The notes below the pieces were generated by a model. The model was not told where the DNA came from. It saw only the letters and a list, made by a program, of their open reading frames with translations, and did not search any database. Source: a virus. From it: a DNA stretch of 38,845 bases. The stretch spans positions 1-38,845 of IMG/VR virus record IMGVR_UViG_3300012988_000010, one strand, 5' to 3'. Positions 5,471-38,845 of this stretch are shown one piece after another; position 1 is the stretch's first letter; every line of letters starts with the position of its first letter. Position numbers and translations under genes: made by a program.

Positions 5471-7227
5471 AGCAAAGGAGAATTGCCATTGATATAGAAA
5501 CGAGTGGTCTATATCCAATACCTGGAAGTAAAATTTTTTGTTGCGCGGTCAATGACGGACACAATATAAAAGTCCATACATCTTTTGAAGAGTTGCGTAA
5601 AGTGTTAGAAGATGAATCAATACAAAAAGTAATTCATAACGCGGCCTTCGATTCATTTTGGTTGTACATGAAACACGGTATTGAAGTCAGGAATATTTGG
5701 GATACTGATTTGATGGAACGTGTTTTGATTGGTGACAACTTATTGAACGCCGACAACGCAACCGAAAAACAAAAGATGGAGTTATCAGCAAGTTTGTACT
5801 ATACATTAAAGCGTTACAAACTTCCGGCACATGACAAAGCAATGTCGTATAACTTTTCACAACGGCCAATCAATGCACCATTAACTAAGCAAGAAATTGA
5901 CTACGTAAAAAGTGACGTTAAACATTTGTTACAAGTTCAGGCATTGCAGGAAATCAGATTACAACGCTTGAACTTAACGCGTGTTGGTACACTTGAAAAC
6001 AAAGTTGTGGAAGTTGTTGTGCGTATGCGTTCGGCTGGAATTGGTATTGATGTTAAACGGTGGTTGCAAATTGAAGAAGAGAACCTTAGAAAAAGTATTT
6101 CAATTCAAAAGCGTTTACCCGCACGTGTACACAATTGGAACAGTCCGCCACAAGCAAAGGCATACTTTCAAAGTATCGGTATTCCTGTTTTATCATTGGA
6201 AGATATTACCGACGATTTCCGACGCAAGTATAACAACGAGATACTAAACAAGTTCGTGGAGATGCGTGAATATTCCACGTATGCGTCTAAGTATGGCCGG
6301 AAATTTTTGTATGCAACAAAGAAAAAAGGCAAAGGAGAAGACCGTTACTTGGTTGATAAAGACAATCGAATACGCGCCAACTTTTCACAAATATTAAACA
6401 CGGGTCGTTTCGCTTGCTCCAATCCTCCTTTGCATGGCTTACCACGGGAAAACGAACGACGTTACGGTTACACTTTTACTGGTGCAAAGCATCGTGGTGC
6501 ATTCGTACCGCGTAAAGGTTGTACGTTTGTCGGTGGTGACTTTTCCGGCCAAGAAATCGGAATCATGGCGGCTGCAAGCGGTGAACAACTTTGGATTAAA
6601 GCGTTGCAACGTGGTGAAGATCCTTTAAGTTTGATGGCAAGTATATTTTTTCCTGACTGGAGCAAAGGCACTGAAAAGAAATGTACGTTTCCAAAAAAAT
6701 GTAAGTGCGCACAACACAAGGAACAAAGACAAATTGCAAAAGAAATAACTTATGGTATCGCATACGGTGCATTTCCAAAAGGTATATCAGTAAAGATTAA
6801 CCGAACGGTGAAAGAAACTAAACGCTTAATGTTAAAGTTTCAACGCACCGCACCAAGATTGTACCGTTGGTTACAAAAGAATGCAAAGGAAACTATACGT
6901 ACACGCGTAAGTTATTCAGCTGATATTTACCGCCGTCGTCGTACTGTTCGTGACCCTCAAGAATGGATGGTGCGCAATGTCGGTTACAATAACCCAATAC
7001 AATCTTCAGCTGCGAACATGATCAAATTAGCCATGATCAGTTTGAATAAAAAGTGGCAACAAATTTTACCGTGGCACGATGACTTAATATTGGAAGTTAA
7101 AATTGGCCAGGCCAAGCAAGCCGCGAAAGAATTAAAAATAGTAATGGAGAAAGCCGCCGATTATTGTACTGGAATTAAAGGGCTTATAAAAGTTGAACCT
7201 AGGATTACTAAATCACTTGAAAAATAA
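5467..7227 (+). CDS. Family A DNA polymerase with 3'-5' exonuclease
   Basis: 586 aa, replicative polymerase. Exonuclease motifs are present: Exo I DIET (D9, E11), Exo II NAAFD (N58, D62) and Exo III YVKSD (Y136, D140). Polymerase motifs are TGR at 302-304, motif A GGDFSGQE (D348), motif B RQIAKEITYGIAYG (K415, Y419), QSSAANMIK near 502-510 and motif C HDD (527-529). No 5'-3' nuclease domain is present, as usual for phage PolA. A Cys/His cluster (C396, C402, C404, H407) lies just before motif B. I chose the ATG at 5467, which overlaps the upstream TGA; a GTG six bases earlier is possible. Confidence 0.95.
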   Translation: MKQRRIAIDIETSGLYPIPGSKIFCCAVNDGHNIKVHTSFEELRKVLEDESIQKVIHNAAFDSFWLYMKHGIEVRNIWDTDLMERVLIGDNLLNADNATEKQKMELSASLYYTLKRYKLPAHDKAMSYNFSQRPINAPLTKQEIDYVKSDVKHLLQVQALQEIRLQRLNLTRVGTLENKVVEVVVRMRSAGIGIDVKRWLQIEEENLRKSISIQKRLPARVHNWNSPPQAKAYFQSIGIPVLSLEDITDDFRRKYNNEILNKFVEMREYSTYASKYGRKFLYATKKKGKGEDRYLVDKDNRIRANFSQILNTGRFACSNPPLHGLPRENERRYGYTFTGAKHRGAFVPRKGCTFVGGDFSGQEIGIMAAASGEQLWIKALQRGEDPLSLMASIFFPDWSKGTEKKCTFPKKCKCAQHKEQRQIAKEITYGIAYGAFPKGISVKINRTVKETKRLMLKFQRTAPRLYRWLQKNAKETIRTRVSYSADIYRRRRTVRDPQEWMVRNVGYNNPIQSSAANMIKLAMISLNKKWQQILPWHDDLILEVKIGQAKQAAKELKIVMEKAADYCTGIKGLIKVEPRITKSLEK

Positions 7228-17040: not shown

Positions 17041-17235
17041 ATGCTTACAATAGGAATTATTATTTACGTGTTCGGGCTTGGATTCTTTTCATGTCTTTGC
17101 ATGATTTCACCCGACCGCATGAGCGTTATGGATTGGGTAATACTTTTCGTTTGGCCGTTTAGTATTATCTTCTATATTGGACAATGGTGTTACGATTATG
17201 TGCGGAGCCTGTTCACAAGTAAAAAAATTCTTTGA
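17041..17235 (+). CDS. Small membrane protein, two helices, 64 aa
   Basis: 64 aa with two hydrophobic segments (about 2-22 LTIGIIIYVFGLGFFSCLCM and 31-47 DWVILFVWPFSIIFYIG). The end overlaps the next gene by 38 bases. It forms an envelope pair with the secreted protein before it. Function unknown. Confidence 0.65.
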   Translation: MLTIGIIIYVFGLGFFSCLCMISPDRMSVMDWVILFVWPFSIIFYIGQWCYDYVRSLFTSKKIL

Positions 17236-17389
17236 GGCAGCCGATAACCAAACAAAGGCAAGTCGTAGGGCTTTATGTAAGTCCTGCGACTTTTACGTTT
17301 CAGGCTTCTGTGGAATTTGTACGTGTAATGTATTTCTAAAAACAAAATTAAAAAATCAATCATGTCCAGCAAGTCCCCCAAAGTGGTAA
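17198..17389 (+). CDS. DUF6171-like Cys-rich protein
   Basis: 63 aa from ATG 17198. Eight Cys: C2, C5, C27, C30, C38, C41, C43 and C56, ending CP-x4-KW. The pattern C-x2-C ... R-x-LC-x2-CD ... G-x-C-x2-C-x-C-x-V-x2-K-x-K ... CP...W is that of DUF6171, a small zinc-binding family, as I remember it. An earlier ATG at 17177 is possible. It overlaps both neighbours. Its molecular role is unknown. Confidence 0.75.
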   Translation: MCGACSQVKKFFEAADNQTKASRRALCKSCDFYVSGFCGICTCNVFLKTKLKNQSCPASPPKW

Positions 17390-21643: not shown

Positions 21644-23004
21644 GTGAAGAACTCAAGCAGATTAATAAAATCTCTGAGCAAATCGACGGCCTTGTTAAAC
21701 AACTTGGCGACAAAGTAAACAAAGACGAATTGGAAACATTGCGTCAAGCAATTACAGAAATTCGTGACATCGTGGAAAACCTTGAAGGTTCTCAAATTCC
21801 TGAACCCGCCGACGAACAAAAATTAGATCGTCTCATTGGTGAGGTGAATAAGAAAATTGAAAAGTTAGGCACTCAAGTTGGTGAAATGCAACGCGACGTT
21901 GATAATGCAAAAGCAAATCCACGTTCAGCGCGTAAAGCTAAAAAGGATTTCACCGCGGAAGTGAAAAAGTTTATTGAAGAAACTTTCACCGATGAAAGTA
22001 AAACCGATAAGACTTCCAAGAAGGCTTCTATTCGTGTGAAGGCTGCGGAAGTTTTCGGTATTCCTAATTTCTTTGAAGGTGGTGCGGACACGGTTACAGA
22101 CGCATTTACAGACAGGTTTGTTGACCCAACATTGTATCAACGTCGTCGTAAAACGAACATCATTTTGGATTATTTCCAAATCGATACAATTCAGGTACCA
22201 AAACTTTTGTTTCTTGTTAAAGAAGAAGTATCGGGAGATGATGAAAGTTCAGAAGACACAGGTTCCGCCGACTGGATTACTTCCGGTGCATCTAAGCCAA
22301 TGCGTTCTTTTCGTGTAACAACTGGGGAAGCAGAAGCGAAAAAAGTTGCAATCTTTGGAACAGTGGAAGATAAACTTTTACGTGATGTGCCAAGCCTTGA
22401 AGCGTGGTTGCGTGAAGACTTTACCGATGAAATGAAAGAAGCGTATAACGACGGTTTGTTAAATAACAACCCATCAATTGACCCTAACGCTCCACTTGGT
22501 TTGAAACACAATGCCGTACAATATGTGGGGTCACCTGCATTTGATGGCACCATTGATGACCCTAACGAAATAGACGTTATTGTTGCAATGGCTGCTGACA
22601 TGGCGTTGCGTAAAGAACAGGCTGCAACCGCGTTCATTGCGAAAGATGTTTGGTATAAAATTCAAGTATTGAAAGATCAACAGGCCCGTTATCAAAATAA
22701 CCCACTTGTTTATACAAGTACAACGGGAGAATTGTACATTGCCGGTGTGCATGTTGTTGGGGTTGATAACGAAGACGTACCAAGTACACACGTTTTAATG
22801 ATCGGCGCGGAAGTTGGTTTCAAAATCCGTAACTATGGAGACATGGTGTTTGAACGTGGTTTGAATGGAAACGACTTTAAAGAGGATAAAACTTCATACC
22901 GTGGTTATCAAGAAGTGTTGTCATACATTCCAACTCATAGAGAGAATAGTGTAATGTACGATACTATCGCAAACGTTATTGCCGACCTGACAGCAACTAG
23001 CTAA
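21631..23004 (+). CDS. Major capsid protein (HK97 fold)
   Basis: 457 aa. Residues 1-100 are a coiled-coil delta/scaffold domain (EQIDGLVKQLGDKVNKDELE...), expected to be removed by the protease. From about 150 the HK97 core appears: ILDYFQIDTIQVPK, then KKVAIFGTVEDKLLRDVPSLEAWLRED (spine helix region), QAATAFIAKDVWYKI and a P-domain ending IAGVHVVGVDNEDVPS. It forms the capsid shell. The gap after the gene carries a highly structured RNA element. Confidence 0.93.
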   Translation: MSEVSEELKQINKISEQIDGLVKQLGDKVNKDELETLRQAITEIRDIVENLEGSQIPEPADEQKLDRLIGEVNKKIEKLGTQVGEMQRDVDNAKANPRSARKAKKDFTAEVKKFIEETFTDESKTDKTSKKASIRVKAAEVFGIPNFFEGGADTVTDAFTDRFVDPTLYQRRRKTNIILDYFQIDTIQVPKLLFLVKEEVSGDDESSEDTGSADWITSGASKPMRSFRVTTGEAEAKKVAIFGTVEDKLLRDVPSLEAWLREDFTDEMKEAYNDGLLNNNPSIDPNAPLGLKHNAVQYVGSPAFDGTIDDPNEIDVIVAMAADMALRKEQAATAFIAKDVWYKIQVLKDQQARYQNNPLVYTSTTGELYIAGVHVVGVDNEDVPSTHVLMIGAEVGFKIRNYGDMVFERGLNGNDFKEDKTSYRGYQEVLSYIPTHRENSVMYDTIANVIADLTATS

Positions 23005-23009
23005 ATCGG

Positions 23010-23102
23010 TTTGTTTGGTTATCGAGGGTTAGGGAAGGTAAGCCATACTCCTTCCCGCCCTTGTTTAAAATAATTTAAGGTATGGCATAACCGACAAACA
23101 AA
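23010..23102 (+). ncRNA. Candidate pseudoknotted RNA element after the capsid gene
   Basis: The 98-base gap between capsid stop and next ATG can fold almost completely. P1 pairs 23010-23016 with 23096-23102 and 23017-23022 (GGTTAT) with 23087-23092 (ATAACC), with a 3-base bulge. P2 follows directly: 23023-23028 with 23058-23063 (one G-U) and GGGAAGG 23032-23038 with CCTTCCC 23050-23056. The P2 loop GCCATAC (23042-23048) matches GTATGGC (23080-23086), forming a 7-bp pseudoknot stacked on P1. P1 ends at the base before ATG 23103. No U-tract follows, so it is not a simple terminator. Confidence 0.65.
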
Positions 23103-23366
23103 ATGACAAAGGAAAACAACAAGTACAAGAACACCGTGGTGGTGGAAGTTCAAGAGGACTTTAATCCACTGCAAGCGCGTACAGCAAAAAGCGACGTGAA
23201 AAAGAGTAGAGTGATTTACTCCAAAGGGTCACGCCATGCAATTAGAAAGGAACTTTTAACCAAATTGAAAAAGAAAGGTTTGAAGTGCAAAGAAGTTAGC
23301 GTGGACTTTGGCGCTACTGAAAAAAAGGCAGCCGACAAATTAAGAAAGTCAAGAAAAGAAAATTAA
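23103..23366 (+). CDS. Hypothetical basic protein, 87 aa
   Basis: 87 aa, strongly basic (SRHAIRKELLTKLKKKGLKCKEV; C-terminal KKAADKLRKSRKEN). Its ATG directly follows the last paired base of the RNA element, so that structure may control its translation. Its position between capsid and connector suggests a head-associated or DNA-binding protein. No family is recognised. Confidence 0.7.
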   Translation: MTKENNKYKNTVVVEVQEDFNPLQARTAKSDVKKSRVIYSKGSRHAIRKELLTKLKKKGLKCKEVSVDFGATEKKAADKLRKSRKEN

Positions 23367-30718: not shown

Positions 30719-31357
30719 ATGAAAAAACTAATTCACGCCTCCTTTTTAGCAAGCATGGTACAAAAAGGCTTGGCATGTTTCCGCGTACCATGCGGCGAAC
30801 TTGATAGTGGAAGTGAAGCCGGAGAGTGCGAGACACTACCACCAAGTGGAACGGAGGCGATTATTAGAGCCTTCAACAAACGTGATATTGTTGGTTATGA
30901 CGAAACCAATGACATCATTACCGACATCCAATTGAAACCTGGAAAGCAGGGGTTTGTTTTCACGGGCTTTCGTAATGACGCAAAGAAATCTGAAGAAGTT
31001 ATCTTGCCGTCAGTCGGTGCACCAATGTTCAAACATGGTTCCGGCTTTGTTGTTTATCACAGAGACCAAGCAACCAAGAACACGGTAGAAAATCTTTGCC
31101 GTGGAACGTTTGTATTTGTTGTTGAACAGAAAGGCCAAGACTCAACGGCGTTCGAACTTGTTGGTAAAAAATGCGGTATGCGTTTAGTGCCTGGCTCAAT
31201 CCGTGACGCACACACCAATGGAGGTTTTTACGTTTTGAACTTTGCCACCGCCGATGGTGAAGGGGAATTGGAACCTAAATTGCCACAAGTATTTTGCGAT
31301 ACTGATTACGCTACAAGTTTGGCGGCTCTTAATGCAATGTGTGAGGGTTCAATCTAA
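30719..31357 (+). CDS. Tail structural protein, 212 aa (possible tube or tip)
   Basis: 212 aa with a Cys-containing N-terminal region (ACFRVPCGELDSGSEAGECE) and a beta-rich rest (GTFVFVVEQKGQDSTAFELV, GFYVLNFATADGEGELEPKL). It has its own promoter, as expected of an abundant product such as a tail tube subunit. Repeated-type G-x-CG-x-RL and LPQVFCDTDY segments are suggestive, but I cannot name a family. Its stop overlaps the next ATG (TAATG). Confidence 0.6.
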   Translation: MKKLIHASFLASMVQKGLACFRVPCGELDSGSEAGECETLPPSGTEAIIRAFNKRDIVGYDETNDIITDIQLKPGKQGFVFTGFRNDAKKSEEVILPSVGAPMFKHGSGFVVYHRDQATKNTVENLCRGTFVFVVEQKGQDSTAFELVGKKCGMRLVPGSIRDAHTNGGFYVLNFATADGEGELEPKLPQVFCDTDYATSLAALNAMCEGSI

Positions 31358-38696: not shown

Positions 38697-38845
38697 TTAT
38701 GGTTGAATTACAAATCTAAAATAACCTTTCGATTGCGCTTGTCCCAGTGCGTGGTTAATGGAGTCAGTCGTTAACACCATTTGTTTTTCTTGTATATCGT
38801 ACACACCGAAACGTGAGCCGCGCGGAAACTTTAACTTTGAAGCGT
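38697..38845 (-). CDS. C-terminal part of the split 78-aa Cys-rich protein
   Basis: The continuation of the gene that starts at 211 on the minus strand. Bases 38723-38845 repeat 1-123, and 38697-38722 add the last residues (YFRFVIQP) and TAA. No gene is missing if the ends are joined. Confidence 0.75.
   Translation of the reverse strand, partial: ASKLKFPRGSRFGVYDIQEKQMVLTTDSINHALGQAQSKGYFRFVIQP
38723..38845. repeat. Terminal direct repeat, right copy
   Basis: Identical to 1-123; see the left copy. Unique genome length is 38,722 bases. Confidence 0.95.

Follow-up and report, generated by a model that had tools for sequence, protein, structure and literature searches.

What does the RNA between the major capsid gene and the following gene of this phage do? 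The question was examined in a stretch of 38,845 nt (IMG/VR record IMGVR_UViG_3300012988_000010), referred to below as the window, in which a structured gap separates the capsid stop codon (23002-23004) from the next start codon (ATG 23103). The features of this junction are listed in Table 1.

Table 1. Features of the capsid junction (window coordinates)
Feature	Position	Strand	Details
Major capsid gene, HK97 type, 457 aa	21631..23004	+	PF05065, E 3.6e-13; phrog_10 major head protein, E 2.3e-14
Structured gap, 98 nt, capsid stop to next start	23005..23102	+	MFE -32.1, z about -3
Outer stem P1, 5' strand	23009..23022	+	pairs with 23087-23099 over 13 bp, one bulged U
Core hairpin P2	23023..23063	+	23023-23028/23058-23063 (6 bp), 3x1 internal loop, 23032-23038/23050-23056 (7 bp), 11-nt loop 23039-23049
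Candidate pseudoknot strand in hairpin loop, GCCATACT	23042..23049	+	pairs with 23079-23086 through an exact 7-nt complement and one G-U; helix of about -15 kcal/mol
Candidate pseudoknot strand downstream of hairpin, GGTATGGC	23079..23086	+	pairs with loop strand 23042..23049
Outer stem P1, 3' strand, overlapping region just upstream of next start codon	23087..23099	+	pairs with 23009-23022
Next gene, Lys-rich 87-aa protein	23103..23366	+	same-place genes of relatives homologous, phmmer E 1.5e-10 to 1.3e-4

Genome context of the gap

The record carries an exact direct terminal repeat of 123 nt (1-123 = 38723-38845) and is therefore likely to be a complete genome of ~38.7 kb, either circular or terminally redundant. 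Family searches showed that the phage encodes Terminase_3 and Phage_portal proteins. The named phages nearest to it by terminase have Flavobacterium, Cellulophaga, and Bacteroides as hosts; the host group of the window phage is Bacteroidetes. Among the families tested, the capsid protein matched PF05065 and phrog_10 only, with no match to the Mu gpT family. The Mu likeness suggested in the initial annotation is thus not supported for this HK97-type protein of a Terminase_3/portal phage.

The Mu-gpT-DE RNA motif (RF03012) is a structured RNA downstream of a capsid gene, and kinship with it had been suggested for the gap. Its covariance model was unmatched in the window (E <= 5) and in 22950-23160 (E <= 10), and no Rfam family gave a credible match at these thresholds, which leaves the suggested kinship unsupported. 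The two loci also differ in their capsids, since the gap follows a PF05065 gene and not one of the Mu gpT family. No tRNA or tmRNA was detected. A mobile copy of the gap elsewhere was considered as well, but blastn searches of phage records and of all retrieved loci returned only short chance matches. A 15-nt inverted match at 17242-17256 was judged to be chance; it sits in an apparent small Cys-rich reading frame (17198-17389), which probably encodes a zinc-ribbon-like protein and contains a strong 14-bp hairpin inside the coding sequence.

Folds available to the gap

The gap is structured beyond chance. Its fold gave z = -2.99 against shuffled sequences (2 of 200 as good), z = -3.46 in a second shuffle test (0 of 300), and 3 of 600 in a third, and its z-score was the most extreme among the folded gaps of the window. 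A crude score including the pseudoknot helix was reached by none of 600 shuffles, although it allows outer stem and pseudoknot to form together, a doubtful assumption on steric grounds. The four pairings originally named (the outer stem, the hairpin, the loop-tail pseudoknot, and a helix competing with the outer stem) all have their complementary strands at or adjoining the positions assigned to them.

The core hairpin is the most robust of these elements. On its own, this GC-rich stem of 13 bp folds with -20.1 kcal/mol, and its pair probability was 0.98-1.0 in every context, longer flanks included. Its stem ends 39 nt upstream of the next ATG.

The outer stem is less stable towards its surroundings. 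It had been described as 13 bp with a 3-nt bulge, ending at 23102. An outer stem does exist, but a better register was found (Table 1), which has one bulged U and ends three bases before the ATG; together with the hairpin it reaches -30.5 kcal/mol, compared with -25.7 kcal/mol for the original register. With added flanks, the outer-stem pair probability dropped from 0.95 to 0.02, a flank-dependent prediction that ribosomes in the cell would alter. The stem would partially cover the bases that immediately precede the next start. The claim that folding hides the start itself was contradicted: bases upstream of the AUG are partly paired, but in all computed states the AUG is mostly open (probability of being unpaired about 0.8-0.95 in the predicted ensemble). 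As to the competing helix, TCGGTT and AACCGA are indeed complementary, but their pair probability was 0.0 in every context.

The complementarity of the loop motif GCCATAC (23042-23048) to GTATGGC (23080-23086) was confirmed. This exact motif pair is expected 0.01 times per window. However, 7-bp hairpins followed closely by any 7-bp match to their loop are not rare in themselves, with 31 cases in 40 shuffled windows (one strand) and two in the real window. A scan of IMG/VR for AAGCCATACT...GGTATGGC returned 28 stretches, about the chance number, and all of the 18 inspected were unrelated sequence. The loop-tail pseudoknot is best described as possible, supported by a single sequence. A similar arrangement was noted at 30741-30793 of the window, within the reading frame 30719-31357, where a second hairpin is followed closely by an exact 9-nt complement to its loop (GCATGGTAC/GTACCATGC).

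In architecture, the candidate pseudoknot resembles the H-type pseudoknots of viral frameshift and read-through signals, with a long stem 1, a stem 2 of 7-8 bp, and an A-rich third loop. Unlike in frameshift signals of this type, stem 1 begins 18 nt past the stop codon, no slippery site is present, and the downstream start lies in another frame, with every frame stopped before it. A frameshift or read-through signal was rejected: in-frame read-through would add 22 codons up to TAA 23071, and the remaining two frames are closed at 23030 and 23076, so that all three stops precede ATG 23103.

Outer stem and pseudoknot are probably alternatives and would not coexist, because, by geometry, a coaxial stack of hairpin and pseudoknot (~21 bp) would set its two ends some 60 A apart, with no linker bases to close the outer stem. 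During transcription, the pseudoknot would form ahead of the outer stem and then, since the helices have no linker bases between them, compete with it. The gap might thus act as a switch, in which two mutually exclusive folds either cover or free the stretch ahead of the next start, coupling next-gene translation to translation of the capsid gene. The two helices are similar in strength, and a ribosome finishing at the capsid stop would open the outer stem; when 22990-23016 was masked to mimic this ribosome, the openness of the bases rose from about -11 to -4. Several results speak against the switch, which we regard as improbable. Every predicted state leaves the AUG open, longer flanks abolish the outer stem, and the downstream pseudoknot strand has a competing 7-bp partner inside the next gene (23233-23239). 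Moreover, neither the pseudoknot nor the outer stem of the window occurs in any of the 30 syntenic relatives described below. In its most specific form, i.e. a bistable RNA tying translation of the next head gene to ribosome passage over the capsid gene and thereby setting capsid stoichiometry, this reading appears more doubtful still, and we know of no described example of such a switch. Outer stem and pseudoknot are hence treated here as apparent window-specific additions, seen in one sequence.

The capsid junction in related phages

Relatives were recruited by alignments, since single-sequence searches were insufficient: those with the window capsid and terminase yielded none, and none were found in bacterial genome contigs. 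The alignments recovered 30 distinct IMG/VR relatives with a homologous next gene and capsid identities of 45-54% (nearly all 47-54%). The 87-aa protein of the window was matched by the downstream genes of 19 of the 22 loci compared (phmmer), so the junction is homologous. The distance from capsid to next gene ranged from -1 to 67 nt in these relatives. In 28 of the 30, the gap was short and lacked notable structure; a simple hairpin was present in the other two (L280, gap 67, -21.8; L273/L173, gap 33, -11.8).

In a sister capsid lineage (L011), two kinds of junction were found, of 2-27 nt without structure and of 56-67 nt with a GC hairpin. Such hairpins, of 8-16 bp, occur at 10 junctions, with a shorter one in L253. 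They start 6-15 nt after the stop codon, end 20-29 nt before the next ATG (25-29 nt in nine of 10), and have z-scores of -2.4 to -7.7 against shuffles. Their arms covary, with both sides changed in six of seven pairs and a score of 0.853 compared with 0.272 in shuffles, values in which pairing is inflated as the rows were trimmed to seven pairs, shortened in their loops, and chosen for folding. More distant lineages with a post-capsid hairpin are L009, L010, L014, L018, and L087. The distance of 39 nt in the window falls outside the 25-29 nt of the sister lineage; other lineages span 9-43 nt. A comparison of post-capsid with other gaps was uninformative because the simple ORF caller skips small genes.

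Presence of the hairpin accompanies a capsid-to-next-gene distance of about 60 bases, compared with a few bases where it is missing. L231 and L232, each 93% identical to the L011 capsid, differ in hairpin presence. Since the junction is unstructured in most relatives, even where capsids are 93% identical, the post-capsid hairpin is dispensable for head assembly, which weighs against the insulator model proposed below. In the window, too, the capsid stop and the next start are separated by a GC hairpin and not by a short gap, and the core hairpin fits a recurrent post-capsid hairpin that is easily gained and lost.

Rearrangements and other variants were also seen around these hairpins. L235 (2833-2863) and L236 (1377-1407) share a 31-nt exact inverted match, with the post-capsid hairpin in opposite orientations (loop TTAATG and CATTAA, respectively). 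In L243 (2823-2972; L117 contig), the 3' half of the hairpin and the next start region are duplicated ~120 nt downstream, which leaves an apparent truncated copy of the next gene. In L088 (~5503-5540) and at the same place in L092, phages without the small post-capsid gene, a strong hairpin (AAAGTCCCGA...TCGGGACTTT) lies within the beginning of the next coding sequence.

The hairpin DNA might have been acquired by chance or by recent insertion at a mosaic boundary, without any selected function in the window phage. The pattern of presence and absence across relatives fits this explanation, as does the exact inversion between L235 and L236, palindromes being easily rearranged. Nevertheless, we consider it unlikely, as the structure exceeds that of shuffles and independent hairpins occupy the same junction in several lineages, in one of them at near-fixed spacing to the start.

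Insulation or termination

A post-capsid terminator has precedents. In T7, a terminator directly behind the capsid gene is an established arrangement (PMC5592923), and in the podoviruses JG068 and LIMEzero one is predicted (PMC3765740). The window resembles both cases in having a structured element or hairpin directly downstream of the major capsid gene, which in T7 is T-phi after gene 10, with the genes beyond it expressed by read-through. It differs in that T-phi serves a phage RNA polymerase, whereas the window tail is weak and termination putative, and in that the JG068 terminators, selected by TransTermHP, are shown with a thymidine stretch, whereas the A/T tails are broken in both the window and its relatives.

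A leaky intrinsic terminator resembling T-phi is accordingly a credible, if tentative, alternative: hairpin and TTTAAAATAATTT would stop some polymerases and leave more capsid mRNA than downstream mRNA, with outer stem and pseudoknot incidental. The position matches known use (PMC5592923, PMC3765740), and the compensatory arms and A/T tails of the relatives fit terminators. The tail score of the window hairpin, -2.6, is borderline and just passes the cut-off of TransTermHP. On the other hand, the window site is not among the results of the terminator scan, its hairpin carries an internal loop besides the 11-nt terminal loop, and tail scores in 15 relatives reach no more than -0.8 to -2.05, i.e. 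they are those of poor U-tracts. Proper U-tract terminators elsewhere in the window phage score -3.8 and -5.4; the view that the gap is not a canonical U-tract terminator is supported.

Since the U-tracts behind the hairpins are poor relative to those of terminators at other sites in the window, we favor an insulator that works chiefly at the post-transcriptional level and rank leaky termination closely after it. The gap would then be an intercistronic RNA insulator built on the stable hairpin, lowering expression of the next gene relative to the capsid gene, a model to which we assign a probability of roughly 0.45. The earlier proposal that the element separates capsid from downstream expression is plausible in this light, as hairpins recur at the junction in relatives. 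Mechanistically, the hairpin may break close translational coupling from the capsid gene to the next gene, and it may also protect or define the 3' end of the capsid mRNA or cause weak termination. The result would be an excess of capsid over the product of the next head gene. Phages require far more capsid than connector protein from one operon.

If this is true, a small hairpin gained or lost at exactly the capsid junction would act as a dial, simple and evolvable, on the ratio of capsid to connector protein. Natural phage pairs with and without the hairpin, such as L231 and L232, make the dial directly testable. The pseudoknot of the window, if real, would add regulation on top.
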